From Calditrichota bacterium (GTDB taxonomy: Bacteria > Calditrichota > Calditrichia > RBG-13-44-9 > J042): a stretch of 64,000 nucleotides of DNA. The stretch covers positions 62,001 to 126,000 of the forward strand of contig JAADJD010000062.1 in the NCBI GenBank assembly GCA_013150955.1. Reading direction: 5' to 3'. A model generated the notes under the pieces. That model did no database searches. It was not told the DNA's origin and saw only the letters and a list, made by a program, of their open reading frames with translations. Positions 1 to 53,541 of this stretch are shown here, one piece after another (position 1 is the stretch's first letter; every line of letters starts with the position of its first letter). The translations under genes and the position numbers were made by a program.

Positions 1-2427
1 CACAAACTGGGAAAAGATCAACACCTTATGGCCCCGCCCCAGTATTTCTTCCAGCATATCCTCCAGCAATAGAATTTTCCCGGACTGATACAGATCCATG
101 TCCGGTTTCAAAATGGCGGGGTGACAGGCAATCTGCCGTAAATAGGTCAACGCCTCGATAATCTTCATCCGCACTTTGTTGATTCCCAGTTCGTCAATCT
201 GGCTAAAAATCTGCTGGCGGTAAGCCTCCAGCACCTGATTGTAAATGCGGCGCTGCTTCTCGGTCATCTCCACCACCTGGATAATCTCCGAAAGCGGTGG
301 CAATTGCTTTTCCACTTCCTCCTTCGTCCGCCGCAGGATAAACGGGTAAATTAATTTGCGCAACGTGTGCAGGGCATGTTCGCGTTCTTCCGGGGGAATT
401 TCAACATATTTTGCGGTAAACTGCGGCAGCGTGCCCAGAAAACCCGGATTCACAAAATTGAACTGTGCCCACAAATCCTGCAGCGCATTCTCGATGGGCG
501 TACCGGTTAGCGCCAGCCGATGCAGAGACTTCAACTTTTGCACGGCGCGGTAGGTTTTGGTCTGGGGATTCTTAATCTTTTGCGATTCGTCCAGAATCAC
601 ATACTCAAACGTGCGTTCCGCAAGATGCTTCTGATCCTGCAAAACCACTCCGTAGCTACAAAGAATCACGTCATACTGATCGAACTTTTCCAGCATCCTG
701 ACCCGATCGACCCGATTTCCGTAATAGCGCAAGACGCGCATTCCGGGTGCAAATTTCTGGAATTCTTCCCACCAGTTGAAAATCAGCGTTAACGGCACCA
801 CGATCAATGCCGGGTGTCGTAACCGGCCTTCTTCTTTCAGTTTGGTTAACAGGGCAATGACCTGAACCGTCTTGCCCAGCCCCATGTCATCGGCCAGGAT
901 GCCTCCAAACCGGAATTCGTGCAGGAAATGCAGCCAATCCAGGCCTGCCTTCTGATACTCGCGCAACTGCCCTCGAAAACCGCCGGGCACCGAAACGGGC
1001 TCGATCTCCCGAAACTCCCGATAGCGTTGAATTAACTGCCGGCTATCCTCATCAAAATTGATGTCCCCCAGGATTTCCTCCAGTTCCTGCAGCACCATCA
1101 CGCCGGCATTGGGCAGGCGGATTTTCTCATGGCCATCGCGGATGTCCAGTATTTCGGCCACCCGCAGGATCTTTTCTCGCACTTCCTGAGGCACGTAAAT
1201 GTGGGAACCATCCGACAACTTGAGATAAGGCTTCCCCGATTTCAACTGCCGTACCAGCTGGGGGATGGCCACCGAGCGATTGCCCACTCGAATCTGAAAG
1301 CGCAGTTCCAGCCAGTCCTCCAGCGCCTGTACATCCACCCGAATGCGCGGCGTTCCCCGATGCACGCGGTAGTAATGCAGCCGATCCAGCCCGTAAATTT
1401 TAAACCCAAATGCTTCCAGCCGGGGAATTTCCAGGCGCATCCAGTCCAGGGGATGGTAATCGGCGGCAATGTGCCAGTAACCGCTGCGGTAGATCAACCC
1501 ATGTTCTTCCAGGAAGTTCCGCGCCCGATCCTCTTCTTCGCGATCCCGGCGGATGATGAATAAATGACCGTTGTCGTTGGTTAAACTTTTTTCCGCCGGG
1601 GGATTGGCCGGGAATTCGAAACGGCTGTAACGGAAAAACACTTCGATTTGCAGATGCTGATTTTCTTCCGTGAACACAATCGCTTTTTCTTCCAGTGGCA
1701 GTTCGTAAGCCTTTAAATGATCCGCCAGATTCTCCCAATCCAGGATGGGCAACAGATGGGACAGGTAAATCCGGATGAAGTCATCCAGTTCACTCTTGGG
1801 AATTTCAAATTTCTCGTATACCCGGAAATAATTATTCCAGAATATGGCCGGTAAATGCGATTCAATCTTATACAGCACCTTCTGGTACAGAATGTAGATG
1901 GGATTCGAGGTCAGCACGGTTACCGGATGTTCCAGTTCCAGTGCATCGTCCTTGAATTTCAAGGTGGGTTGCAGATAGAACCCGGTTTTACCCTGTTTCA
2001 ATCGCAACACAATGCTGGCCGTCTCCGGATGAAAGGTAACCGGTTCTGGATTCCGCTGCACCATGTCCTTGATCAGCACGCTGCTATTCCGCAACCAGTC
2101 CAGCAAAAATCCCACCGGCTGAGTGTAAGTGAACACCTGGCGTCCGTCGTTACCAACGCTGGTTTGCAAATAAATCAGGCAATTCAGTTCATCTTCGGTG
2201 ATGTTCACCTTGCTGCTATCAATAACCGCAAGCGAAAGGCGCACTTCCCTGCCGGGTGAACCATCCAGCCGGGTGTAGTTGGCATAAGGTAAAATCGTCC
2301 AGTTGGTAGCGCGCAATTCAATCAAAAAATAAGGCTCGTACACTCCGGCTTTGGACTCAAAAGACTTGGGTTGCGGCGACTTTTCGATTAACCCTACCAG
2401 TTGTTCAATTTTGCCTCGCCAGCTCAT
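1..2427 (-). CDS. SNF2-family DEAD/DEAH helicase, C-terminus cut by window edge
   Basis: ATP-dependent SNF2/HepA-type motor that would translocate on nucleic acid to remodel bound protein such as stalled RNA polymerase. Translating the minus strand from ATG 2427 gives 809 residues without a stop to base 1. About 440 N-terminal residues form the accessory region usual in large bacterial SNF2 proteins. The motor follows: motif I DDMGLGKT with its lysine near residue 519, motif II DESQ near 613, LTGTPIEN a little later. The last residues, GHKVLIFSQF, are the start of the second RecA-like domain, so roughly 150-200 residues are missing beyond the edge. The start is chosen because the ATG just upstream (about 2445) runs straight into a stop. 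The ribosome binding site is weak. The family call is secure; the substrate cannot be told. Confidence 0.9.
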   Translation of the reverse strand, partial: MSWRGKIEQLVGLIEKSPQPKSFESKAGVYEPYFLIELRATNWTILPYANYTRLDGSPGREVRLSLAVIDSSKVNITEDELNCLIYLQTSVGNDGRQVFTYTQPVGFLLDWLRNSSVLIKDMVQRNPEPVTFHPETASIVLRLKQGKTGFYLQPTLKFKDDALELEHPVTVLTSNPIYILYQKVLYKIESHLPAIFWNNYFRVYEKFEIPKSELDDFIRIYLSHLLPILDWENLADHLKAYELPLEEKAIVFTEENQHLQIEVFFRYSRFEFPANPPAEKSLTNDNGHLFIIRRDREEEDRARNFLEEHGLIYRSGYWHIAADYHPLDWMRLEIPRLEAFGFKIYGLDRLHYYRVHRGTPRIRVDVQALEDWLELRFQIRVGNRSVAIPQLVRQLKSGKPYLKLSDGSHIYVPQEVREKILRVAEILDIRDGHEKIRLPNAGVMVLQELEEILGDINFDEDSRQLIQRYREFREIEPVSVPGGFRGQLREYQKAGLDWLHFLHEFRFGGILADDMGLGKTVQVIALLTKLKEEGRLRHPALIVVPLTLIFNWWEEFQKFAPGMRVLRYYGNRVDRVRMLEKFDQYDVILCSYGVVLQDQKHLAERTFEYVILDESQKIKNPQTKTYRAVQKLKSLHRLALTGTPIENALQDLWAQFNFVNPGFLGTLPQFTAKYVEIPPEEREHALHTLRKLIYPFILRRTKEEVEKQLPPLSEIIQVVEMTEKQRRIYNQVLEAYRQQIFSQIDELGINKVRMKIIEALTYLRQIACHPAILKPDMDLYQSGKILLLEDMLEEILGRGHKVLIFSQFV

Positions 2428-40850: not shown

Positions 40851-42395
40851 ATGGAAACACGCACACTGTACTGGATCGCTTTTGTTGCCTACAGCCTGCT
40901 GGTTCTGGGCATTGGTTACCATACCTGGCGGCGGCATCGACATCGGGGAAGCGCGGTTAGCAACCAAACATATTGGGCGGCAGACCGCCAGCTCTCTGGC
41001 TGGTCGGTGGGGCTATCCATTTCCGCAAGTATGATGTCCATAAGCTGGTCCTGTGTGTATGGCGTTCAACTATTTTACTGGTATGGTGTGGGAGCCATCT
41101 GGCTGCTCATCATTCCCTGGTTACTGACGATGGCCGGGTTTTACCTTCTATCGCCGCGGTTTCGCCGGATGGCGGTTTTTTCCCAGCCAGAGCTTCTGGA
41201 AAAACGCTTTGGCATACGATCCCGGCAATTGCTTTCGCCGGCACTGATTCTGGTGTTCACCGTCTGGGGCGGTGCCGAAATTTATGCCGCAGGGATCACC
41301 CTGCAACCCTTTCTGGGACTCCCATTGCCCTGGACACTTCTGATCATCGCCTGCATCGTTGCGGCGTATTCCTTTCTGGGCGGGTTTGGCGCTGTGGTAT
41401 CAACTGACAAAATTCAATTTTTACTGGTGGCCGGTTTTATTTCCCTGATGGCCTTTCTGGGTTTCAAGGGGTTGCAGACACACGATCAAGTGCTGGATGT
41501 GGTTCAATTAACCCGGCTGGCTCCGAAATCCCAAAGCGGCATTCCCTGGCTGTTTTCTCCGGGGCCGGCACTGATTCTCATCACCCTGTTCGTTTACCTG
41601 CCGGGATGGCTGGTCGAAACCGACGTATGGATTCGCCTGCAGGCCGCCCGCAGCAACCCCGAAGCCCGCAAAGGCATCTTTCTGGCCGCTGTGAATTCCC
41701 TGATTTTCGTTGGAATCGTACCCATGATTATCGGCCTCAGCGCTCTGGCCATCTATCCTGCAATCAACGGCGAAATTCCTGCCCGATTACAGGATGGGGC
41801 CTTCATATTTGGCGCCTTCATGCAGGATTTCTCCTCCAGCTGGCTGAATCTGATTCTGGGGATTGGCCTGCTGGCTGCATCCATGTCCACCGTGGATACC
41901 TGCGGCAACGTGGTGGCCCTGTCCGCATCCTATGACCTGCTGGAACCGCGGTTAAAGCACCGCTGGTCACCCCACCGGTTAAACCTGCTGTCGCGCTGGA
42001 TGTCTGCCGGGGCCATCTTTCTGGCGTTCTTTTATGCCCTGTTTACGGAATCGCTGTGGGATATATTCTACCTCTCTTCTGGTATTTTAACCACCACCGT
42101 TTTCCTGCCGGTGGTGGCGGCATTTCATCCAGGAACCCACTCCCGAATGATTCACGGGGCCATCCTTTTCGGTTTTGCAGGAACCCTGATTTTCTACTTT
42201 TTAGAATCCCGGGGCCACCTGTCTGTTATTGAACCACAGTGGCTATCTCAAACCGGTCTGGGTTACATCATCTGGGGATTCCTGGCCTCCATCCTGGGAT
42301 TCCTTATGGGTTCCCGGATTCCGCCTCATCCCGGAAACCTTGCCACTGAAAAAGACACCGTTCACCATTCATCCAAAGGGAGGAATCGTTCATGA
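40851..42395 (+). CDS. sodium/solute symporter (SSS family)
   Basis: Inner-membrane Na+-coupled importer, 514 residues, about 13 helices. Family features: SVGLSISASMMSISW near residue 50-65, SFLGGFGAVVSTDKIQF (the GG-x-V-x-TD-x-Q stretch of SSS proteins) near 175-190, and ASMSTVDTCGNVVALS in the Na+ site region. Substrates of the family range over sugars, amino acids and organic acids; nothing here narrows it. ATG 40851 is used; a GTG at 40839 is possible, and neither has a good ribosome binding site. Overlaps the next gene by four bases. Confidence 0.9.
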   Translation: METRTLYWIAFVAYSLLVLGIGYHTWRRHRHRGSAVSNQTYWAADRQLSGWSVGLSISASMMSISWSCVYGVQLFYWYGVGAIWLLIIPWLLTMAGFYLLSPRFRRMAVFSQPELLEKRFGIRSRQLLSPALILVFTVWGGAEIYAAGITLQPFLGLPLPWTLLIIACIVAAYSFLGGFGAVVSTDKIQFLLVAGFISLMAFLGFKGLQTHDQVLDVVQLTRLAPKSQSGIPWLFSPGPALILITLFVYLPGWLVETDVWIRLQAARSNPEARKGIFLAAVNSLIFVGIVPMIIGLSALAIYPAINGEIPARLQDGAFIFGAFMQDFSSSWLNLILGIGLLAASMSTVDTCGNVVALSASYDLLEPRLKHRWSPHRLNLLSRWMSAGAIFLAFFYALFTESLWDIFYLSSGILTTTVFLPVVAAFHPGTHSRMIHGAILFGFAGTLIFYFLESRGHLSVIEPQWLSQTGLGYIIWGFLASILGFLMGSRIPPHPGNLATEKDTVHHSSKGRNRS

Positions 42396-42847
42396 AAAGC
42401 AGTCTCCTCTTCGCAATCTTAGCCGGCACCTTCTGGGGTGTGGGTGGCTATTTCGAAAAAGCCGGATTGCAACTGTTGAAAATGCCCCCTATCGTCGGCA
42501 TTACCATCCGTACCGGCATTGCACTGATCCTGCTGGGCATCATTTCCATACCCGCCTGGCAAACGCTGGAAAAAACGTCGGCCATTTCTGGATGGGTCAT
42601 GCTGGTCATTGGCGGCGGCATCGTTGCAGGGACTCTGGGAATGTGGAGTTTTTATGCGGCGCTTTCACATTCTCAAAATCTTGGGGTAACGCTGGCCATC
42701 GCCTTTGCCTTTTCGCCCCTTGCCGGCACCATGACCGGACTTTTGAAAGGGACTCAACAGATGGACTGGAAAATTGCGCTGGGATTGATTTTTATTATTG
42801 GCGGAATGATTCTAATCCAGCTGGCTCATCAGGGCACCCGATCGTGA
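42392..42847 (+). CDS. half-size EamA-domain membrane protein
   Basis: 151 residues with a single EamA repeat: about five hydrophobic segments starting FAILAGTFWGVGGYFEKAGL and ending IFIIGGMILIQLAHQ. Full DMT exporters have two such repeats, so this one should work as a homodimer or be a partner of the symporter, with which it overlaps by four bases (ATGA). GGGAGGA lies eight bases upstream of ATG 42392. A strong hairpin begins 10 bases after the stop. Substrate unknown. Confidence 0.85.
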   Translation: MKSSLLFAILAGTFWGVGGYFEKAGLQLLKMPPIVGITIRTGIALILLGIISIPAWQTLEKTSAISGWVMLVIGGGIVAGTLGMWSFYAALSHSQNLGVTLAIAFAFSPLAGTMTGLLKGTQQMDWKIALGLIFIIGGMILIQLAHQGTRS

Positions 42848-42856
42848 GAAATGAAC

Positions 42857-42890
42857 AATCCCTTCCTGCGTCCCGGTGCAGGAAGGGATT
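42857..42890 (+). terminator. perfect 13-bp hairpin without U tract
   Basis: AATCCCTTCCTGC (42857-42869) pairs with GCAGGAAGGGATT (42878-42890), eight-base loop. Starts 10 bases after the EamA stop; no T run directly follows. Confidence 0.55.
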
Positions 42891-42939
42891 CACCCATCCC
42901 AAAGTTTTCCCGATTCGCCCCATTAATCATCGGCTATCC

Positions 42940-43016
42940 AATAAACCCTCAACAAGTTTCCATCCAAGATATAATCTTTTTATTTGTGTTCATTCGTGTT
43001 ATTCGTGGTCTCATGG
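42940..43016 (+). repeat. interspersed repeat, truncated copy 9
   Basis: Only the core end (AATAAACCCTCAACAAGTTT, CCATCCAAGATATAATC) and the right arm (GTGTTCATTCGTGTTATTCG) remain; the left arm is missing. Between two convergent genes. Confidence 0.75.
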
Positions 43017-43063
43017 ATAAATCGCATTGTGTCGCGCTCATCGTGCTCAAAACAGAATCCAGA

Positions 43064-44434
43064 TTAAAATTTGTAAGAAAGACCGATCATGACCCGCGTT
43101 ACCCGGATATCTTCCAGCGTTCCACCCGGCGTCAAGGCGTCTTCGGACTCCTGCTTCCAGGCACCATACAGATAGGTGATGTTTAACGATACGTACTGAT
43201 CCAGTTTAAAGCCCAATCCAGAGGTCAAATACACCCGATCCATCGTTTTGGGGGCACCCTGGTAAGGCGCGGGAATGTAAATGTAACCACCGCGCACACG
43301 AAGCATTTCCCCCAGTGCCCATTCACCGCCGATCTGATAGCGGATGGTCTCCCGATACTCCCGCCGGATAACGCGATTTTCATCCAGTAAAGCGGCATAA
43401 TCGGGATCGTCCATGGAATTCTCCGGGATGACAAACCGGGTTTGCGACCAATCCCGATACCGGAAACTGGCGGCCAGGGTGAACGGCTTCACCCTCAACG
43501 AAATACCGCCATCGAAATAAAACGGCGTCTGGACTTTGTACTGGAATTCTCCTCGATCCAGTTCTTGCTGGTCACTAAAACCATCGTCGTAGACCAGTTC
43601 ATCGGTTGCCAGATAGGATTCGGTTACCGTAAAGGTCACCGGCAATCCAATGGTAGCCCCCAGACGGGCAAATCCGCCCAGTTTAAACATACCCCCAATT
43701 TTCATCCCGATGGCCGAATACTGGGACTGGATGGACTCTTCGTATTTGTACGAATAAAAATCGGCTACCATTTTAGGTTCTGAGTATTCATTGTAAATAT
43801 CTTCCTGGTAAAAGAACAATTGATAATTTTCCCGTCCCCGCCAGATGTCCAGACTGACCCCGAGGTCAAAATTGGGGGACAACGCAATGGCCGCCGCAAC
43901 GCTCCAGTTCCGTAATCCACCTTCGTTGTTCACTTCCTCGGTCTGCTGGACATTCTTATCAAACGGGTAATAAACTTCCTGCCCATCTTCGATAACCGGG
44001 ATTTCCAGACCATTGCTCTGGGTATTGAATCCCTCAAAGAGCAGGGAACGATCAAAATCTTTCACCCGGTTGTAACCAAAGCCAAGCACAAAGCTGCCTC
44101 GCGTGGTAGGAAGAGGCAGGGCAAATCCAATCGCCCGCACCTGGGTAAAGCCCTGACTTTGATCGGTGGTTACACCATAAAAGGTTGCCGAATTGTTGAA
44201 ATTTATGTGAGACAATTCTCCATAAAATTCCGATTGCCGCAGGGAAGCCAGTCCCGCTGGATTCCAGTAGATGGATAAATAATTATCCGTGGTTGCGGTG
44301 AAAGCACCGCCCATGGACAGGGCACGGGCACCAAAGCCCATCTCGTCCTGCACAATCCGAACCGCATCGAACGCACTTTGACCCCACAGGTTGACACCGA
44401 GCATCAGTAACAGAGAAACAACACCCCGCCACAT
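43064..44434 (-). CDS. FadL/OmpP1-like outer-membrane protein
   Basis: 456 residues: signal peptide cut after NLWGQS, then ALSMGGAFTATTDNYLSIYWNPAGLASL, the plug/hatch opening of the FadL-PorV superfamily, followed by many amphipathic strands and the terminal VMIGLSYKF with the C-terminal Phe expected for outer-membrane barrels. Such proteins pass hydrophobic compounds or act as secretion-system anchors; the particular role is open. It follows the Tyr-rich lipoprotein by 28 bases on the same strand and shares its sigma-54 promoter, so it is the probable second output of the kinase/NtrC circuit upstream. Confidence 0.87.
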   Translation of the reverse strand: MWRGVVSLLLMLGVNLWGQSAFDAVRIVQDEMGFGARALSMGGAFTATTDNYLSIYWNPAGLASLRQSEFYGELSHINFNNSATFYGVTTDQSQGFTQVRAIGFALPLPTTRGSFVLGFGYNRVKDFDRSLLFEGFNTQSNGLEIPVIEDGQEVYYPFDKNVQQTEEVNNEGGLRNWSVAAAIALSPNFDLGVSLDIWRGRENYQLFFYQEDIYNEYSEPKMVADFYSYKYEESIQSQYSAIGMKIGGMFKLGGFARLGATIGLPVTFTVTESYLATDELVYDDGFSDQQELDRGEFQYKVQTPFYFDGGISLRVKPFTLAASFRYRDWSQTRFVIPENSMDDPDYAALLDENRVIRREYRETIRYQIGGEWALGEMLRVRGGYIYIPAPYQGAPKTMDRVYLTSGLGFKLDQYVSLNITYLYGAWKQESEDALTPGGTLEDIRVTRVMIGLSYKF

Positions 44435-44462
44435 AAATATTCACTCCCTTCTTTAACCTTTT

Positions 44463-45743
44463 TTAACGCCGTTTAATCGTTGCCCGGGAAGACGTTCCCC
44501 GGCTGGAACTGGAAGAGCGGCTGCTTCCGCTCCAGCTGCTTCGCGAAGAGGAACTGGATGAAGACCGATAACTGGGCCGGCTGGACGATCGAGACGGCGA
44601 CCGATAGCTGGGCCGACTGGAAGAACTGGATCGGCTGGATCGATAGGATGGCCGGGACGAGCTGCTCTTCCGGGCAGGCGCTACCGACTCCTGACGTGAC
44701 TTTCGATAGCTCCGGTACTTTTTAGTTTCGCTACTGCGAGTCCGTCGGATTTCCCGGGTGTGCGAAGATCCATTTTCCCGCGCGCGAACCACTTTCTTTT
44801 CCGTCCGCCGCGGGCTTTTAGTCCGAACCACCTTGCGCTCACTTCGCTTTGAAGAGCGGACGTCTTTCTTGACTCGCCTCTTTTCTTCGGTGCTCAATCG
44901 GGCGCGTTTGCGCTCCCGATCGTAAATCTTCCGGATAATGCGCTGCTTGTCCGCATTGCGATTGCCATTAGTTAACTCCTTCGGAACCCGGGTGCGGATA
45001 ATTTCTGGCGTTCGGCGCCGATTCCGTTCGCGATCAGGAACCTCCCGCTCCACCACGGTACGCTGTTTCCGCTCCGCCACCTGGCCGCGCTTACCGTTGC
45101 TGACCACCGGACTGGAAGCGACCGGTCGGACACCCCCAACCAGCGTCCGATCCGACGGTTCTCGATCACGAATCAGTGGTTTACGGCGATCCCACTCACG
45201 CCGCTTGGTCGGCGCGCGATCCACCACATATCCATAGTTGATCCATCCGCCCCAGTAAAATCCATCCCAATAATACGGCGAATATCCATAAAACCCCCAA
45301 TAGCCAGTGTAATAATAATCCCACCAGTAGTACGGATAAGACCAATACGGATAATACACCACTACCGGAGGTGGGTAATACCAGAACGGTCGACCAAAAT
45401 GCAATCCAATGTGAACACTAACAAAGGGGCCATAGAAGGGATCATAAAAGAATGGATCGTAATAAAACGGATCATAGAAAAACGGATCGTACCAGCCGCC
45501 AACAATGTAATCACGATTGTAAAAGTAATAATTTTTAACAATGGTACGACCATAGCCGTAGTCATCGTAAGCCTCTTCCTCGTAAACGGTGTCTACCTCA
45601 GCAGTGGTATACTCTTCATCCGAATACACCACTGTGGTGGAGGTGACACCCCTCGTGGTACCAAACGTGGTATAACATCCCTGAAAAAGTAACAGCGAAA
45701 CAACCGCTGTTGTTATCATCAAAATGGATCGCCAGGATTTCAT
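44463..45743 (-). CDS. lipoprotein with Tyr/Phe-rich and Arg/Ser-rich halves
   Basis: 426 residues. Lipoprotein signal ending LLLFQGCYTTFG (lipid Cys near 23). Residues about 65-180 are extraordinarily aromatic: tandem DPFFYDPFYYDPFF units, then WSYPYYWWDYYYTGYWGFYG. Residues about 180-330 are Arg/Lys-rich and charged. The last 80 residues are Ser/Arg repeats (SSSRPSYRS several times). No enzyme family fits; aromatic repeats next to a cationic tail suggest a surface polymer- or matrix-binding protein or a condensing, low-complexity protein. Start is ATG 45743, seven bases after AGGT; GTG 45752 is less well placed. A sigma-54 promoter lies 36 bases upstream. Co-transcribed with the FadL-like gene. 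Confidence 0.85.
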   Translation of the reverse strand: MKSWRSILMITTAVVSLLLFQGCYTTFGTTRGVTSTTVVYSDEEYTTAEVDTVYEEEAYDDYGYGRTIVKNYYFYNRDYIVGGWYDPFFYDPFYYDPFFYDPFYGPFVSVHIGLHFGRPFWYYPPPVVVYYPYWSYPYYWWDYYYTGYWGFYGYSPYYWDGFYWGGWINYGYVVDRAPTKRREWDRRKPLIRDREPSDRTLVGGVRPVASSPVVSNGKRGQVAERKQRTVVEREVPDRERNRRRTPEIIRTRVPKELTNGNRNADKQRIIRKIYDRERKRARLSTEEKRRVKKDVRSSKRSERKVVRTKSPRRTEKKVVRARENGSSHTREIRRTRSSETKKYRSYRKSRQESVAPARKSSSSRPSYRSSRSSSSSRPSYRSPSRSSSRPSYRSSSSSSSRSSWSGSSRSSSSSRGTSSRATIKRR

Positions 45744-45778
45744 GTCGATCACCTCACTTTAGTTCTACCCTTTTCTAA

Positions 45779-45795
45779 CTCAATATATGTGCCAA
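45779..45795 (-). promoter_or_regulatory. sigma-54 (-24/-12) promoter
   Basis: Minus strand reads TTGGCAC, five bases (ATATA), then TTGAG. This matches the consensus TGGCAC-N5-TTGC in all but the last -12 base. Transcription would start near 45768, leaving a leader of about 25 bases before the lipoprotein ATG. It lies directly downstream of a sigma-54 activator gene, which strengthens the call. Confidence 0.72.
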
Positions 45796-45893
45796 AAGAT
45801 TCTGTGGAAAAGGGAATATCACAAAACGACCGATTTTTCTTGAAAAATCAACGGGTTTGCCCATGCTCCTGAATGGCGGGACGATCAGACCAC

Positions 45894-45910
45894 TGTCAAC
45901 TTTGTTGACA
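45894..45910 (-). promoter_or_regulatory. palindrome, candidate activator binding site
   Basis: TGTCAAC-TTT-GTTGACA: perfect seven-base arms with a three-base centre. It lies about 100 bases upstream of the -24 element, the usual distance for an enhancer site, and 8 bases after the activator stop codon. A second inverted repeat, GATTTTT-CTTG-AAAAATC (45832-45849), lies between it and the promoter. Confidence 0.55.
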
Positions 45911-45917
45911 CAAGGTG

Positions 45918-47366
45918 CTAATCCAGTTTATACTTTGCCAGATCGATCCGGTACCGCTGTAGTTTTTTATGCAGTCCCATGCGACTCAAACCCAATTCCC
46001 GTGCCGTCTGGCTGATGTTTCCCCGATTTTTTTGCAATGCCCGCTCGATAAAATACCTCTCCATCTGTTCCACCCGTTCTTTTAACTGCAATGCCCCCTG
46101 ACCATTAAAAGGTGCTCCGTCTGTCGTGTGGATCTCCGGAAATTCAATCAAATCAGGTGTAATGGCCATCCCATCATCCGCCAGCACAATCGCGCGTTCG
46201 ATGATATTCTCCAGCTGACGCACATTGCCCGGGTAATCGTAATCCCGCAACCGTTGGAGCGCTTCCGGGTGGATGCCGGTGATTCGCTTGCCCATCTTCA
46301 AGGAATATTTCCGGATAAAATGATACACCAGTTCGGGGATATCCTCCCGGCGCTCCCTTAAAGGCGGCAAATGGATGGGAAACACATTCAAACGATAGAA
46401 CAAATCTTCCCGAAATTTGCCTTCCTGCACTGCCCGAGCCAGATCCCGATTGGTTGCGGAAATGACCCGGACATTCACATGAATGGCTTTTTCGGATCCC
46501 ACCGGGTGAATCTCCCCTTCCTGCAATACCCGAAGCAGGCGTTTCTGAAATTCCGGGGAGGTTTCTCCAATCTCATCCAGAAAGATGGTTCCGCCATCGG
46601 CCAGTTCAAACAATCCTTTTTTATCGCGAGTGGCCCCGGTAAAGGCCCCTTTTACGTGACCAAATAATTCGCTTTCCAGAAGGGTTTCCGGTAACGAAGC
46701 ACAATTCTGACTGACAAACATTTTATGTTTACGAGGGCCGTTGTAATGAATTGCCCGGGCGACCAATTCTTTGCCCGTGCCGGTTTCCCCGGTGATTAAA
46801 ACCGTGACGTCCGTGGGAATCACCTTTTTTAGCAAATGAAACACCTTTTGCATGGCCGGACTTTTGCCAATGATATGGTCGAAGGTGTATTCGGCCTCCA
46901 TCTCGCGTTGCAGCAGCAAGTTTTCCGCGGCCAGCCGTTCGTTGGCCTGACGCAATTCTTCCAGTAAGCGTTCATTGTCTTTTTTCAGCTGATAATGTTC
47001 AATGGCCCGACGGACGATCAGTCGCAACTCATCCGGTTCCCAGGGCTTTTGAATGTAGTAGAAAATTTGCCCCTCATTAATGGCCCGGATAGTGGCATCG
47101 ATATCGGAATACCCGGTAATCAGGATGCGCACCGCATCCGGCTGAATGTCTCTGGCCTGCCGCAGGAATTCCACTCCGGTCATTTCGGGCATCCGTTGAT
47201 CCACCAGTAAAACGGCAACCGGTTGCTTGCGGATCACTTCCAGAGCCGATAATGGCGAAGAGGACAGGATCACCTCATAGTCCCGTCGTAAAATGCGCTG
47301 AATGGCGTGCAAGATCCCCTGTTCGTCATCCACGGCCAGAACCGTGTACCGTCGATTCGTTGACAT
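45918..47366 (-). CDS. NtrC-type sigma-54-dependent response regulator
   Basis: 482 residues: receiver domain 1-120 with phospho-Asp 56 (VLLVDQRMPEM) and Lys 107 (IQKPWEP); coiled linker about 125-158; AAA+ domain about 163-395 with Walker A GETGTGKE at 193-200, the sigma-54-contacting loop GAFTGA at 240-245, Walker B TIFLDEIGE near 260 and the arginine-finger region; Fis-type helix-turn-helix at about 440-475 (GNISQTARELGLSRMGLHKKL). The intact GAFTGA predicts that it really activates sigma-54 promoters. Its ATG overlaps the kinase stop by one base (TAATG). The palindrome and -24/-12 promoter just downstream are its likely targets, so the lipoprotein-FadL operon is its likely regulon. Confidence 0.94.
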   Translation of the reverse strand: MSTNRRYTVLAVDDEQGILHAIQRILRRDYEVILSSSPLSALEVIRKQPVAVLLVDQRMPEMTGVEFLRQARDIQPDAVRILITGYSDIDATIRAINEGQIFYYIQKPWEPDELRLIVRRAIEHYQLKKDNERLLEELRQANERLAAENLLLQREMEAEYTFDHIIGKSPAMQKVFHLLKKVIPTDVTVLITGETGTGKELVARAIHYNGPRKHKMFVSQNCASLPETLLESELFGHVKGAFTGATRDKKGLFELADGGTIFLDEIGETSPEFQKRLLRVLQEGEIHPVGSEKAIHVNVRVISATNRDLARAVQEGKFREDLFYRLNVFPIHLPPLRERREDIPELVYHFIRKYSLKMGKRITGIHPEALQRLRDYDYPGNVRQLENIIERAIVLADDGMAITPDLIEFPEIHTTDGAPFNGQGALQLKERVEQMERYFIERALQKNRGNISQTARELGLSRMGLHKKLQRYRIDLAKYKLD

Positions 47367-50300
47367 TATTTCCTCTCCTCATCCCTGTTTTTCCCGGTTT
47401 CCCTGGAAAGTGGCAAATAGATCCGAAAACACGTCCCCTTTCCTTCCTGACTTTCAACTTCGATGCGCCCCCCATGATCCTGAATGATCCGGTAACTGAT
47501 ACTCAATCCCAGTCCCGTTCCCTGGCCCACAGGTTTGGTGGTAAAAAACGGATCAAAGATCCGCGAAAGCACATCGGCTGGAATGCCTTTTCCATCGTCG
47601 CGAATCTCCACGCACACTCGATCCCCTTCACTGCGTGTGGTGATCCAGATGTTTCCTTTCCCCTCAATGGCCTGAATGGCATTCAACAAAAGGTTCATGA
47701 ATACCTGATTGATTTGCCCGGGCTGACAGACAATTCGGGGTAGCTCGCCATACTTTTTGTGAACCCGAATCCGATCCCGAATTTCGTGGCGCAGAAGGGT
47801 CAGGGTCGATTCCAGGCCTTCGTGTAAATCCACCGACTTGAACGCCGCTTCGTCCAGTCGGGAAAAATTGCGTAAGTTTTGCACCACTTCTTTCACCCGT
47901 CGGCTTCCATCCAGGCTTTCCTGAATCAAACCATTCAAATCGTTTAAAATAAAGTCCAGATCGTATTGATCCTGTAATTGTTGTACCGTTTCTTTTAACT
48001 TTTCGGGCAGATCCCTGGCATCCCGTTGTTTTAAAATGACCTCCAGCAATCGCGAGAGCGCCTCGACATATTCCTGCAGGGTCTTCAAATTGGCATACAC
48101 AAAGCTAATGGGATTATTTAATTCGTGGGCAACCCCCGCGACCAGTTGCCCCAGACTGGACATTTTTTCGCTCTGGATGAGCTGGGCCTGCGCCTCCTTC
48201 AATTCCTGATACAATCGCCGCAATTCCCGGTTCTTCGCTTCCAGCTCCCGCACATATTTCTCCCGCACCTCGGCCTCAGTCACCTTCTGAATCAACCGCT
48301 TGGTCTCTTCGATATAGCGATTGTTTTCCACGGCAATGGCGGCCTGATTGGCAATAATCTGCAAAATGCTTCGATCCTCCGCATTCAATTCCCGACGTCT
48401 CTCCCCGGTTACCAGAACAATCACTGCATACAGGTTATCCTCCCGGCCAATCGGGATCAGGTAATCGCAGGGAATTCGGGTGAACTCCGGCAACTGTCTT
48501 TGAATCTCATCACAGGCCAGAATGCGCCCCCCGCTCAGAAGCGCCTGTTTAGACGGGTCGAGCGAGATTTCCGGCATTTGTGGAAGCGTTTTTCCGGAAC
48601 GGGCCACCTCACGAAACACATCGCCCTGCTTTTCCATGACCAGACAGAGCGATATTTCCAGCGCCCGGTGAATGGTGGAAGCCAGCTGGGAGAACAGCTC
48701 CTGATTGGTTTTAATTAAAATCAAATCCCGCGAAAATGCCTGCAGCAGACGGCGATAGCCAAACCGCTTTTCCTCCACCCGGCGAATTTTCTCCAGCACC
48801 ACGGTGGCCGCCCCGATCACCACCAGCAAAACCCCCAGCTGGGTGGTTAAAATTTTTCGTACCGGCTCTTCCCGATACATCCAGAACACCCCGTAAAGCA
48901 GCCCAATCATTAACAGAATGAAGGCATTAAAACTCACATTGCGCCAGTGGTAGCGCGAGCCAGCCAGGGAAAGAAAGGCCACAATGATGCCAAAAATCAA
49001 TAACGACAATCCCAGATTGATCCAGAAATCCAGTTGTTGAACCAGGCGACCCAGGGAATGCATCATTCGGTAGGACACCTTCCGCAGGCCGGTTTTTTCT
49101 TCCACGATGTACACATTTCCCGGTTTCAGCCCGGAACGCCAGCGTTCGGTGCCGGAGGGGAAGACGATTCGCGCAGTGTATTGTCCCCCGGCGTCCACCC
49201 CAAAATGGGCCACCAGTTCGCTCAGGGATAAATAACCCTGTCCCCCACTGATTTCCCGAAAACCAACCAGCACCAGGCTGTCCCGCTCATCTCGTTTATA
49301 CAACCACACCCGGGTGCCCACAGCATCGCGATTGCTCCCGACCCCTTCAAGGATCAGGCGGACATAATTTTTGTTATTTAACGGATTGAGATACAGAACG
49401 GAATGGGTGTCCTTGTTGGCCACAAATACGTCCAGATCACCATCGTCATCCAGATCCGCTACCGCCACCCCGGTGCTGTAATTCTGGTTTCGAACGGTAC
49501 CCGGGAGCCGTTCCTCAAACACCCGTTCCAGCAGCTGCCCATTTCGATTCAAATAAAATTGATTGGGGCCAATGTTGGAGAAAAAAACATCCTGCCACCC
49601 GTCGTTGTTTAGATCAGCAATGATACCGCCATACGCCGGGTAGGGATTGGCCACCTGAAACGGCCGGGGAGCTTCCTCAAATTGCCAGTTCGTGTCCCCG
49701 GCCGCTGTATGATTCAGATACAGGCGACTGTGGCCATCGCGATCCGCAACCAGAAAATCGAGATCGCCATCATTATCCACATCGCCAAAAACCACGCTGT
49801 TGCTATTCACCGCGTGTTGGAGGTGAAACAACGGCAAAGAAACCGGACGGAAGGACATTCCCCCGCGATTTTCATAAAGCGTATCTGGAGCAAACCAATT
49901 GCAAACGTAGAGATCCAGATCACCATCCCCATCCACATCGGCAAAGGCCGCACCCTGACTTACCGCACGCGAAGCCACCCCATATGCCGACGCCCGATCG
50001 CGAAAATACCGCCCATCGTAATTGATGAACAGATGATTGGCATGGTGCTCGTCCGTAACGAACAAATCCAGGTCACCATCGCCATCCACGTCTCCCCAGA
50101 TTCCCATATTGCCATCCAGGGGACGCCGCAACCCCATCTCTTCGGTCACATCCTGAAAACGAAAATGGGGCAACTGGCGAAACAATCGGGTACTGACCCC
50201 CCACCCCAGAATCAGCACATCCACCCGGCCGTCATCGTCAAAATCGACGGCCGATCCGCCAAGCTCCAGATTAACCTTTTTGCGCGGCATAAGGTTACCC

Positions 50301-50626
50301 CCCAGGCCGGTGGCGATGGTTCGATCTTCGAAGGTTTGCCCTCCCTGGTTCACAAATAACCGGTTGAGATTCCGAAATCGCACCACATAAAGATCCGGAT
50401 AACCATCATGATTCAAATCGCGAAACACCACCCCGTAACTGTCCCCAAACTCCGGTAATAGAGAATGACTCACCGGTTGGGCAAACATCCGGGCGACCCA
50501 GAGGGAATCTCCAGTTGCACCTGCAGAACTCATGAATAAAAAAATCAGGCCAATAGCCCCCAGCCAGCGCATGCTCCCGCACGGTGAAAAGCCTGGGGAA
50601 CGCTCACAGTAGGTTACTGTTTCCAT
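47366..50626 (-). CDS. sensor histidine kinase with exported FG-GAP propeller and ASPIC/UnbV domain
   Basis: 1086 residues from ATG 50626. An N-terminal hydrophobic segment (WLGAIGLIFLFMSSAGA) leads to an exported half with seven DxDxDG-type FG-GAP calcium loops starting near residues 70, 128, 179, 230, 282, 338 and 391 (for example DVDGDGDLDLFV), consistent with one seven-bladed propeller. An ASPIC/UnbV-like domain follows at about 435-510 (GYLSLSELVAHFG, VFPSGTERWRSG). Three membrane spans lie at about 534-556, 564-585 and 596-613; then a GAF domain (640-770), a coiled coil and a HisKA-HATPase core: phospho-His 834 in VAGVAHELNNP, N-box NLLLNAIQAI, DDGKGI, FDPFFTTK, GQGTGLGLS. The kinase overlaps its regulator by one base. 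A second start, ATG 50572, is also possible. This sensory half is unusual for a kinase. Confidence 0.9.
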   Translation of the reverse strand: METVTYCERSPGFSPCGSMRWLGAIGLIFLFMSSAGATGDSLWVARMFAQPVSHSLLPEFGDSYGVVFRDLNHDGYPDLYVVRFRNLNRLFVNQGGQTFEDRTIATGLGGNLMPRKKVNLELGGSAVDFDDDGRVDVLILGWGVSTRLFRQLPHFRFQDVTEEMGLRRPLDGNMGIWGDVDGDGDLDLFVTDEHHANHLFINYDGRYFRDRASAYGVASRAVSQGAAFADVDGDGDLDLYVCNWFAPDTLYENRGGMSFRPVSLPLFHLQHAVNSNSVVFGDVDNDGDLDFLVADRDGHSRLYLNHTAAGDTNWQFEEAPRPFQVANPYPAYGGIIADLNNDGWQDVFFSNIGPNQFYLNRNGQLLERVFEERLPGTVRNQNYSTGVAVADLDDDGDLDVFVANKDTHSVLYLNPLNNKNYVRLILEGVGSNRDAVGTRVWLYKRDERDSLVLVGFREISGGQGYLSLSELVAHFGVDAGGQYTARIVFPSGTERWRSGLKPGNVYIVEEKTGLRKVSYRMMHSLGRLVQQLDFWINLGLSLLIFGIIVAFLSLAGSRYHWRNVSFNAFILLMIGLLYGVFWMYREEPVRKILTTQLGVLLVVIGAATVVLEKIRRVEEKRFGYRRLLQAFSRDLILIKTNQELFSQLASTIHRALEISLCLVMEKQGDVFREVARSGKTLPQMPEISLDPSKQALLSGGRILACDEIQRQLPEFTRIPCDYLIPIGREDNLYAVIVLVTGERRRELNAEDRSILQIIANQAAIAVENNRYIEETKRLIQKVTEAEVREKYVRELEAKNRELRRLYQELKEAQAQLIQSEKMSSLGQLVAGVAHELNNPISFVYANLKTLQEYVEALSRLLEVILKQRDARDLPEKLKETVQQLQDQYDLDFILNDLNGLIQESLDGSRRVKEVVQNLRNFSRLDEAAFKSVDLHEGLESTLTLLRHEIRDRIRVHKKYGELPRIVCQPGQINQVFMNLLLNAIQAIEGKGNIWITTRSEGDRVCVEIRDDGKGIPADVLSRIFDPFFTTKPVGQGTGLGLSISYRIIQDHGGRIEVESQEGKGTCFRIYLPLSRETGKNRDEERK

Positions 50627-50770
50627 CAATGTGGACTTTTCCCCGTTGCATTAAGTGTTTAAGCATGTAACGACTCGAATTACCCTGAATACACAACGCT
50701 TAAGTAAAGATGTTCACGCAGATAAAACGAACCGCGATTTGCAAAAATTCCTCTGAAACCATTCGATTTG

Positions 50771-50935
50771 AAGCCAAGTAATGCATTGAACCGCGAATCA
50801 CGCGAATGAACACAAAAAATATCAATTAAAATCACGAATAAACCTCGAAGTGAATTTTCATACAGATCTAATCCAATGGATTTTATTAATTGGTATTAAT
50901 CCGTGCAATTCGTGGTCTAACGCAGAATTTCGGCT
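50771..50935 (+). repeat. interspersed inverted-arm repeat, copy 10
   Basis: Left end AAGCCAAGTAATGCATTGAA, arm CGCGAATCACGCGAATGAA, core AATTTTCATACAGATCTAAT with CCAATGGATTTTATT, right arm TGCAATTCGTGGTCTAACG. A more decayed fragment may precede it at 50670-50770. Nothing else is seen in 50630-51139. Confidence 0.9.
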
Positions 50936-51139
50936 AAATGATAATTCGTGCCAACTCGCATGCATTTTCGGAATCTGAGTTAACAATTTGAATGCCCTGT
51001 GCAGGGCGTTCAAGCCGGGCAATAGAAACACCTCCCCGATCCATTCAGTGTTTTTTCTGAGAATGTCATCAATATAGACCGGAACGATGGGGGATTCAAG
51101 GGTAAACTGGAGTGAATCAGGCGCTGTGGAGCGAACAGA

Positions 51140-52378
51140 CTATTCGCGAATGCGGGGCGGGGTGTATTCCCGGCAGGGATCCACCACCCGGGCATAGGGA
51201 CTGTTCCAGCTTTTTAGAAAGGTGCGCGCAATGATCCGGACAATACCCTTGCTTCTTACCACCAGGCCCAGATTCCGGGAGCGGTGAAAATAACTCTCCG
51301 CCCAGTTGGAAGTGCCCACCCACACCCATTCATCATCCACAACCATAAACTTGCAATGCTCCACCCGGGCAAAGGGGATAAATCCACCGCTGTATTCGGG
51401 CAATTCGGTAAAGCGGACTTCGATGTTCGGCACCACCTGAAGGCTTTTCAGAAAATCGATTCCGGGCTTTCGGGTGTTCCAGTTGGAAACCAGCAACCGC
51501 ACCTGCACCCCCCGGGCCGCCGCCGATCGTAACGCATTGTCCAGCACTGGATAAAACATCTTCCCATATACCGGTTCGTAATTCAATAACTGAATGAAAA
51601 TCCGTCTCTGCGCCCGGGAAATCAGATCCAGCAGGGCTGTTTCATCATGGGTTAGATTTGGAAACGTGAGCGTGTCGTTGATTGGGCTGAAGGTGGGGAA
51701 GATTTCCACCCATTCCTCTTTCCATTTCATTTGCAGCGGTTTTTGAGGAGAAATGAGGATTTCGTCTGCAACAGGGGGAAGGGGCTTCAGGGCGGCATCG
51801 GGATTTCCCGCCAGGAACCAATCGCGATCAAAAATCTGCAAAATCAGACGCGCCAGCCGTTCGTTGCGAACGCGCAATCCCAGTTCATGGATATGTTTTA
51901 ACGCCCGCCAGTCATAATTCTGGCTGCCGATGAACACGTCCCGGGCGTCAACCACAAAATATTTTGCATGCTGAACGCCACCCCGCTTGTTAAACCAGCG
52001 GATGATGCGCACTTCGATATTGGACACCCGGTCGAGCGAATCCAGCATTTGAGGATAAATCTGGTAAAACCTGCCATCGGCCAGGATACGGATCTGCACC
52101 CCACGCCCGGCCGCCTCCTGCAGCGCATGAAGAACCGTGTCCAGCGGTTCGCCTTCCTGATGGGACAGGTAAAATATTTCGATATCGATGCGCTCCCGGG
52201 CCCCCTGAATCATGTCCAACCAGACGTCCAGTGTCCGCGCGGTTTCCGGCAGCCCCAGATCAACTTCCACCGGAACGCTCTCCACCACCTCAATTGGTGG
52301 CTGCGCCAGGGCCAATCCTGTCAGAATAATCGGGATCCAAACAAAGCGTAGCAATCTGCGAAACCCGGCAATCAACAT
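51140..52378 (-). CDS. exported PLD3/PLD4-like phospholipase D family protein
   Basis: 412 residues with an N-terminal signal segment. Two HKD half-sites: HAKYFVVD (near residue 150, followed by GSQNYDWRALKHIHELG) and HCKFMVVDD (near 340, followed by GTSNWAESYF). Together these form one phosphodiesterase active site. The surroundings (IPFARVEHCKF, SQNYDWRALKHIHELGL, KSWNSPYA) track the animal PLD3/PLD4 and poxvirus K4L group more closely than bacterial cardiolipin synthases; PLD3/4 act as 5' exonucleases on single-stranded nucleic acid in lysosomes. An exported nuclease or lipid phosphodiesterase is therefore likely. Stands alone, 100 bases from rpoZ, same strand. Confidence 0.88.
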   Translation of the reverse strand: MLIAGFRRLLRFVWIPIILTGLALAQPPIEVVESVPVEVDLGLPETARTLDVWLDMIQGARERIDIEIFYLSHQEGEPLDTVLHALQEAAGRGVQIRILADGRFYQIYPQMLDSLDRVSNIEVRIIRWFNKRGGVQHAKYFVVDARDVFIGSQNYDWRALKHIHELGLRVRNERLARLILQIFDRDWFLAGNPDAALKPLPPVADEILISPQKPLQMKWKEEWVEIFPTFSPINDTLTFPNLTHDETALLDLISRAQRRIFIQLLNYEPVYGKMFYPVLDNALRSAAARGVQVRLLVSNWNTRKPGIDFLKSLQVVPNIEVRFTELPEYSGGFIPFARVEHCKFMVVDDEWVWVGTSNWAESYFHRSRNLGLVVRSKGIVRIIARTFLKSWNSPYARVVDPCREYTPPRIRE

Positions 52379-52433
52379 GTTTTCACCTTTCCATCAATGA
52401 TGGGAACAGACGATTTGGCTTCAAAAGGGGCAT

Positions 52434-52456
52434 AAAAAAACCCCGCCGGAGCGGGG
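52434..52456 (-). terminator. intrinsic terminator of rpoZ
   Basis: Minus strand GCCCCGC pairs with GCGGGG around a four-base loop and runs into seven T. Lies 22 bases after the rpoZ stop. Confidence 0.88.
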
Positions 52457-52477
52457 CGACTATCTTCGGGGAAAACG

Positions 52478-52780
52478 TTAACGTCTAACCGGTTCGTAAT
52501 GAAATTCCAGCTTTCCTTCCAGAAATTCTCGCTGGGCCGTAACCACCGGATTTTCCTCTTCTTCGATTTCGGTCTTCTCCATTTCCACCTCTTCCTGCTC
52601 CAGCTGCAGGAAATCGGTTTCAAATCCCCCTTCCAGTTCTTCCAGAATCTGGCGGTCTCGCTTCTTTTGATAGAGTTCCTCATTAATCTGTCGGGCCCGC
52701 TTGGAAATGACCATGACCGCTTCGTAGAGATTCTGGGCAATGTCCAGAAACTTTTTTAAATCCTGAGTACTTGCAGGCAT
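52478..52780 (-). CDS. rpoZ: RNA polymerase omega subunit (Rpb6-like)
   Basis: 100 residues. The opening LKKFLDIAQNLYEAVMVISKRARQINEEL matches the omega/Rpb6 fold (usual bacterial NRFELVxVAAxRARQL), in the diverged form seen in FCB bacteria. The C-terminal half is acidic (EEEVEMEKTEIEEEE). It helps assemble and stabilise the beta' subunit. ATG 52780 is nine bases after AAAGGAGG; the TTG at 52789 abuts that site. A near-consensus promoter and an intrinsic terminator frame the gene, so it is monocistronic. FCB omega proteins are often annotated only as hypothetical. Confidence 0.82.
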   Translation of the reverse strand: MPASTQDLKKFLDIAQNLYEAVMVISKRARQINEELYQKKRDRQILEELEGGFETDFLQLEQEEVEMEKTEIEEEENPVVTAQREFLEGKLEFHYEPVRR

Positions 52781-52828
52781 ACCGGACAACCTCCTTTGAT
52801 CTTATAAATTTTCAAATTCCGAGCGCCA

Positions 52829-52857
52829 AATATAACACAATATTTTTGTGAGGTCAA
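52829..52857 (-). promoter_or_regulatory. sigma-70 promoter of rpoZ
   Basis: Minus strand TTGACC, exactly 17 bases, then TATATT, 49 bases before the rpoZ ATG. A near-consensus match. Confidence 0.7.
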
Positions 52858-52947
52858 CTGTCGGAATAATTATCCGGAAAGCCGTCTTTGCTTCTTGTAA
52901 TTTTTTTTGGTAACCCTTAATTTCTTTACAAAAATTGGAGGGGCACC

Positions 52948-53541
52948 ATGCAACTCCAGCATTTCGCCCGAAAATTGGCGGCATTCGGGTTTGGAATCGC
53001 GTTTATTGTTTTCACAACCTGCTCCAGCAAGGCGGACAAATCGAATACCATACAAACCAAAAAAGGGGAGGAAACCACCATGTCCTTCATTCTGAAAAGC
53101 CCGGCCTTTGAACACGGAAAACCGATACCTCTGAAATACACCTGCGATGGCCCGGACGTCTCGCCTCCGCTGAGCTGGAGTGGCACGCCGGCGGGCACTA
53201 AAAGTTTTGTGCTCATCTGCGATGATCCCGATGCCCCCGTGGGCACTTGGGTGCACTGGGTAATCTACAACATTCCCGGAGACCGAACTGAATTGCCAGA
53301 GGGCGTGGCAAAGGAAAACATTGTGCTGGAAGACGTTCGACAGGGAATTAACGATTTTCAACGGATTGGCTATGGGGGACCCTGTCCACCGGGTGGCAAA
53401 CCCCATCGTTACTTTTTTAAACTGTATGCCCTGGATATCGAAAGCAACTGGGAAGCCGGTCTGACCAAAGAAGAGGTGCTGGAAAAAATGGAGAATCATG
53501 TGCTGGGTCAGACCGAACTGATGGGAACCTATCAACGATAA
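52948..53541 (+). CDS. PEBP-family (YbhB/YbcL-like) lipoprotein, possible second internal start
   Basis: 197 residues. N-terminal lipoprotein signal (FIVFTTCSSKAD, lipid Cys near 25), then the PEBP fold: FILKSPAFEHGKPIPLKYTCDG, SPPLSWSGTPAG, LICDDPDAPVGTWVHWVIYNIP, YGGPCPPGGKPHRYFFKLYALD. All conserved binding-pocket elements (DPDAP, GTWVHW, PPGGxPHRY) are present. Bacterial members are small ligand or phosphate-ester binders of unclear role. GGAGGGG lies before ATG 52948. A second strong site, AGGGGAGG, lies eight bases before Met 45 (ATG 53080), exactly where the cytosolic family members start, so two forms may be made. Divergent from rpoZ. Confidence 0.9.
   Translation: MQLQHFARKLAAFGFGIAFIVFTTCSSKADKSNTIQTKKGEETTMSFILKSPAFEHGKPIPLKYTCDGPDVSPPLSWSGTPAGTKSFVLICDDPDAPVGTWVHWVIYNIPGDRTELPEGVAKENIVLEDVRQGINDFQRIGYGGPCPPGGKPHRYFFKLYALDIESNWEAGLTKEEVLEKMENHVLGQTELMGTYQR

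Follow-up and report, generated by a model that had tools for sequence, protein, structure and literature searches.

What does a bacterial histidine kinase perceive, and which genes does it control, when its sensor is built like a secreted protein? This question is raised by a gene on the reverse strand of the window, a stretch of 64,000 nucleotides from a Calditrichota bacterium (contig JAADJD010000062.1, positions 62,001 to 126,000). An earlier note, made from the letters of the DNA, had described seven DxDxDG loops and an ASPIC/UnbV module on the exported half of the protein, joined by three membrane spans and a GAF domain to a complete HisKA-HATPase core, and indeed all of these parts were found (Table 1). 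The frame runs down from 50629 (TTG start) or 50626 (ATG start) to 47366, and it contains no internal stop codon. Since residues 1-18 are not conserved, M19 (window position 50572), which has a GGGAG just before it, is a plausible true start. Pfam gave the domain order FG-GAP_3 repeats, UnbV_ASPIC, GAF, HisKA and HATPase_c; FG-GAP_3 matched in five stretches (134 bits), UnbV_ASPIC with 27.6 bits (cut-off 23.4), GAF_2 with 30.7 bits (cut-off 28.6), HisKA at residues 826-927 and HATPase_c at residues 971-1075. FG-GAP repeats followed by UnbV_ASPIC above the curated cut-offs define a core of the CRTAC type, and HisKA with its phospho-acceptor H834 and the N, G1, F and G2 boxes, all intact in a motif check, make the protein an orthodox sensor histidine kinase. 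The loops follow the motif D-x-[DN]-x-D-G-x-x-D and number seven in the sensor, whereas shuffled sensor sequences contained 0.006 on average and two at most.

Table 1 Features of the receptor kinase locus. Positions are those of the window; residues and codons are those of the kinase.
Feature	Position	Strand	Basis
Receptor histidine kinase, 1086 aa	47366..50626	-	Single open frame, Pfam domains, orthologues
Signal peptide, residues 19-39	50510..50572	-	Hydropathy; seen again in most orthologues
FG-GAP beta-propeller, residues about 60-430	49337..50449	-	Pfam, loops, fold match to CRTAC1 (9etn)
Calcium-type loops	Codons 70-78, 128-136, 179-187, 230-238, 282-290, 338-346, 391-399	-	Motif
ASPIC/UnbV domain, residues 436-504, on the propeller side of the membrane spans	49115..49321	-	Pfam; aligned with CRTAC1
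Three transmembrane spans, residues 538-556, 564-582, 592-610	48797..49015	-	Hydrophobicity, charge bias
GAF domain, residues 644-768, least conserved portion of the chain	48323..48697	-	Pfam
HisKA (H834) and HATPase_c core, residues 826-1075	47402..48151	-	Pfam, motif check
Response regulator: receiver (D56), sigma-54 AAA+ (GAFTGA at 240), Fis-type HTH	45918..47366	-	Pfam, motifs
Candidate upstream activating site TGTCAAC-AAA-GTTGACA	45894..45910	-	Perfect dyad, between regulator and lipoprotein
Sigma-54 type promoter TGGCACATATATTGAG	45779..45794	-	116 bp downstream of the dyad
Target 1: lipoprotein, lipobox followed by CYT, first half aromatic, tail rich in Arg/Ser	44463..45743 (or 45752)	-	Composition
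Target 2: outer-membrane barrel, FadL/OmpP1/PorV group	43064..44434	-	PF03349, 50.9 bits

The signal-type N-terminus and the three spans (residues 538-610) are present again in most orthologues of the kinase. Positive charge is densest between spans one and two and after span three, and because of this bias the propeller is predicted to lie outside and the kinase half inside. The earlier note had itself named two objections, a propeller in the cytosol and a frameshift or assembly join between sensor and kinase. The first was rejected on the basis of signal peptide and charge bias, and the second was ruled out by full-length orthologues: of the 39 other genomes of the phylum, 30 encode one (frames of 1037-1176 aa, identity 39-72%). 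The copy number is about one per genome; pieces of an orthologue were present in G012, G020, G023, G036 and G039, and among the 39 genomes none was seen in G019 and G028. Viral contigs yielded no orthologue. Conservation, computed per domain over 23 orthologues, was 0.63 for the propeller, 0.65 for the kinase core, 0.53 for ASPIC and 0.39 for GAF.

A sequence profile of the sensor was compared with solved structures and matched CRTAC1 (9etn) best (1.4e-33), with the ASPIC motif GYLS..E..HFG aligned. An AlphaFold model of propeller plus ASPIC was then based on ten sequences, some of them distant FG-GAP proteins encoded on viral contigs; its pLDDT of 67 and pTM of 0.76 are moderate and come from a shallow alignment, and model residues 273-314 (residues 324-365 of the protein) stayed under a pLDDT of 50. 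A model from two sequences (pLDDT 42) had been set aside. The ten-sequence model superimposed on murine CRTAC1 with a Z of 31.3 and an rmsd of 3.4 over 420 of 469 residues, followed by the LGI1 propeller (Z 23.9) and integrins (about 20), and Foldseek also placed 9etn first (4.0e-23), with the periplasmic domain of the heparin-sensing HTCS BT4663 (4a2m) second. As far as a model of this quality allows, the sensor is one compact propeller-ASPIC fold like that of 9etn, and loop count and CRTAC1 match together point to seven blades. CRTAC1 is a secreted protein without a kinase. It has FG-GAP and ASPIC/UnbV in the same order, but in the protein described here this pair is anchored via three spans to GAF, HisKA and HATPase. 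Pfam, sequence profile and fold match support the proposal of the earlier note that a CRTAC1-like arrangement serves as the sensor of a kinase.

Its term "new class of receptor", however, was too strong, since propeller sensors on histidine kinases are established: in the HTCS of Bacteroides (BT4663, BT3049) the inner-membrane histidine kinase likewise has a large propeller as its periplasmic sensor (PMC3243724). HTCS have Reg_prop propellers and a YYY domain, and their kinase and regulator form a single chain, whereas the kinase of the window has one FG-GAP propeller, ASPIC, three spans and a sigma-54 regulator encoded by a separate gene; Pfam matched neither Reg_prop propellers nor a YYY domain in it up to an E of 0.1. 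It thus differs from known propeller sensors by its propeller family and by the domain that leads from propeller to membrane. No paper on FG-GAP or ASPIC sensors on kinases was found in the literature searched, and as far as these papers go a CRTAC1-like propeller plus ASPIC as a kinase sensor is undescribed.

The aspartates of the metal loops have a conservation of ~0.99, averaged over the seven blades in the 23 orthologues. DxDxDG loops conserved in every blade are the hallmark of calcium-binding FG-GAP propellers, and calcium binding by the sensor is likely from its loops. The bound metals could even be the signal, with calcium or potassium availability being sensed and the targets remodelling the envelope, a reading that fits the near invariance of all seven DxDxDGxxD loops and the ions that CRTAC1 reportedly requires for its stability. 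Secreted FG-GAP proteins, however, retain these loops for structure alone, so that their conservation is no sign of sensing, and the invariant residues that are specific to the family sit in other loops; an ion sensor is therefore quite improbable. Counted from the first loop Asp, position -6 in the D-A turn has a conservation of 0.97 and positions +14 and +15 in the B-C loop of 0.88 and 0.84, compared with 0.48 for the C-D region of the blades. In propellers of the FG-GAP kind the D-A and B-C loops lie on one face and the A-B metal loops on the opposite one. The ligand-binding site is therefore likely to be on this conserved side, which carries the D-A and B-C loops and points away from the metal loops. 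Residues on it include R85, W142, E193, H194, W244, K405 and D406. Its EH and GW pairs are kept in a sigma-54 activator of another phylum (L145) and absent from a double-propeller paralogue (L025), both of which are described below.

The stop codon of the kinase and the start codon of the regulator share one base (TAATG). The regulator has an intact receiver D56, Walker A and GAFTGA, and receiver, AAA+ domain with GAFTGA and Fis-type HTH assign it to the sigma-54 dependent response regulators of the NtrC family. As in NtrB/NtrC-type pairs, the output is via sigma-54; in the PDB the kinase core is closest to ZraS of ZraSR (4e-36), and the regulator is closest to AtoC of AtoSC. Unlike in ZraSR and AtoSC, the sensor is unrelated, and scores lie far below the equivalog cut-offs. 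A regulator orthologue is adjacent in most complete kinase loci, and the order kinase, regulator, lipoprotein, barrel is kept in most loci with enough flanking sequence. The lipoprotein, which has no Pfam match, is of low complexity, tyrosine-rich and Arg/Ser-rich, and this make-up is conserved through the phylum: it was constant in 37 loci, with a CY[TS]-type lipobox, a first half with 20-35% aromatic residues and a tail rich in Lys/Arg and Ser. The barrel, a homologue of which is encoded in 38 of 40 genomes, passed Pfam PF03349, stayed below the cut-off of NCBIfam PorV_fam (58.1 versus 90 bits) and had no match among PDB sequences. Rfam had no match in window positions 42000-53000. Several members of one family have a small HAD-like gene between regulator and lipoprotein or after the regulator (L040:12054-12524, L043:11523-11993, L036:11289-11837). 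Upstream of the kinase lies a gene for an exported phospholipase-D-like protein (51140-52378; best NCBIfam match DISARM DrmC, below cut-off), which has the same position relative to the kinase in the same-genus locus L044; as a partner of the kinase it was dropped, since no such neighbour stands out in distant loci.

These targets bear on the ligand. The receptor could be an HTCS-like nutrient sensor whose propeller binds a periplasmic oligosaccharide and whose barrel imports the breakdown products, and the earlier note had likewise suggested a glycan or another cell-surface ligand. Among bacterial receptors, the propeller domains of HTCS indeed come next when folds are compared (4a2m at rank 2; 4a2l, 3v9f), the propeller lectin PVL (4up4) is among the matches, and HTCS bind oligosaccharides (PMC3243724). 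However, in the locus of the window Pfam recognised neither glycoside hydrolase nor SusC/D genes, the conserved gene order has only regulator, lipoprotein and barrel, and this barrel is FadL/PorV-like. Moreover, a single copy in nearly every genome of the phylum with constant targets is unlike the strain-variable sensors of glycan utilisation or diet. We consider a nutrient-glycan sensor unlikely. Because of the universal single copy and the non-catabolic target, surveillance of the envelope is favoured over sensing of diet glycans.

Regulator and lipoprotein are separated by a perfect dyad that is followed by a promoter of the sigma-54 type (Table 1), and the sigma-54 gene rpoN was found in the window's genome. 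At up to one mismatch the dyad is the sole copy in this genome; across loci it is conserved as TGTMAAC-N3-GTTKACA. Scanning 33 target loci with the consensus TGTAAAC-N3-GTTTACA (up to three mismatches) plus a sigma-54 site revealed both together in 27 loci, at a mean spacing of 116 bp, and no such pair in six; shuffled sequences gave 0.1 on average and never more than 2 out of 33. The consensus was built from some of the loci on which it was scored; partly independent of this are the genome-wide counts and a case in which kinase and targets lie apart. In 40 genomes 56 dyads (up to one mismatch) were counted, compared with 30 for the reversed control. Fourteen of the 56 are within 1.9 kb upstream of a barrel, whereas simple arithmetic predicts about 0.04 upstream of the barrels by chance; two of the fourteen are immediately adjacent to the barrel match. 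Seven are within 130 bp upstream of a kinase; these two groups account for most of the excess over the control. The trans case is G017, a single contig of a probable Caldithrix. Its kinase is at 0.11 Mb and its targets are at 4.83 Mb, which would be a distance of about 0.26 Mb on a closed circular contig; of its only two dyads, one precedes the targets and the other the kinase.

Dyads 17-127 bp upstream of the kinase match occur in one family (G017:C1:113657, G029:C161:6675, G033:C193:5937, G026:C266:3562, G032:C132:29862, G027:C48:45716, G030:C28:11516), and their position suggests autoregulation there; in the genome of the window, the genome-wide scan (up to one mismatch) found no dyad at the kinase gene. 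These dyads would also suit a feedback sensor with the lipoprotein, the barrel or secreted FG-GAP cargo as its ligand, so that the operon is switched off or on by the state of assembly. Receptor and targets are closely co-conserved, and integrins, whose FG-GAP propellers bind proteins, are among the fold matches. The contact between receptor and product is hypothetical, however, and the dyad missing at the window's kinase speaks against feedback; such feedback is possible but rather doubtful.

The wiring from the kinase via the sigma-54 activator to the lipoprotein and barrel genes is the best-supported step of our explanation. Architecture, conservation, gene order, dyad and promoter are directly readable in the DNA, and they make this connection of receptor, regulator and targets quite probable. 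The kinase would be an inner-membrane receptor whose periplasmic sensor is a CRTAC1-type core, an FG-GAP propeller of seven blades that metal ions in the loops would stiffen and that ASPIC/UnbV would close off on the membrane side. A periplasmic ligand would bind to the propeller on the side away from the metal loops, with its nearly invariant D-A and B-C loops. The ASPIC domain and the three spans would relay the change inward, and the kinase would phosphorylate the co-encoded activator. The latter, bound to the TGTMAAC-N3-GTTKACA dyad, would switch on the lipoprotein and barrel genes from their sigma-54 promoter; its own kinase gene is probably also under its control in one family. Topology, metal binding and phosphotransfer are our inferences, as are the role of the system and the view that the regulator activates its targets and does not repress them. 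For this role we tentatively propose surveillance of the envelope or of surface assembly, by which the cell might adjust a lipoprotein of its surface and a barrel for transport or shuttling in the outer membrane. "Surveillance" is the weakest step of the explanation, the role of the targets being deduced from composition and family match.

A wider sample of 385 genomes was also searched. Among the matches listed from outside the phylum, only a protein of G320 covers sensor and spans together; a second one is encoded in G399 (L178), which belongs to the same genus. The other FG-GAP/ASPIC matches examined outside the phylum were long and did not match the local kinase model, and some related proteins have secretion tails. 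The G320 protein (L145:4358-8707; G399 has it in L178) is a single chain of 1449 aa, a membrane-bound sigma-54 activator in the order BNR/tectonin-like propeller, FG-GAP propeller, ASPIC, three spans, GAF-like linker, sigma-54 AAA+ and HTH; it has the same sensor and spans as the kinase of the window but differs by the extra N-terminal propeller, the sigma-54 output and the absence of a kinase. Within the phylum a second receptor family is encoded in the window's own genome (L025:1836-5363, contig C2) and at L026, L027, L028, L029, L030 and L034. Like the kinase, these double-propeller paralogues (L025, L027, L030) have FG-GAP, three spans and HATPase, with ASPIC in some, but they have an additional N-terminal propeller (YCF48/BNR-like in some), a divergent kinase without a clear HisKA and other B-C loop residues. 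The block of CRTAC-type propeller, ASPIC and three spans may be a portable module, carried by orthodox kinases, by divergent kinases with two propellers and, outside the phylum, by a sigma-54 activator; it is conceivable, though we put it forward with reserve, that these form an undescribed bacterial receptor family related to animal CRTAC1 and devoted to the control of surface lipoproteins and barrels.

In sum, the locus encodes, beyond the receptor of the earlier note, a conserved two-component system with a predicted regulon, the first linked to an FG-GAP/ASPIC sensor as far as the literature searched shows. An orphan extracellular pair, FG-GAP plus ASPIC/UnbV, which is also found in animal CRTAC1, is thereby tied to a signalling output with a nameable DNA site and targets. 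The question of what the propeller binds becomes accessible to experiment, as one organism with the system, probably Caldithrix abyssi, has been cultivated and the lipoprotein's sigma-54 promoter can serve as read-out.
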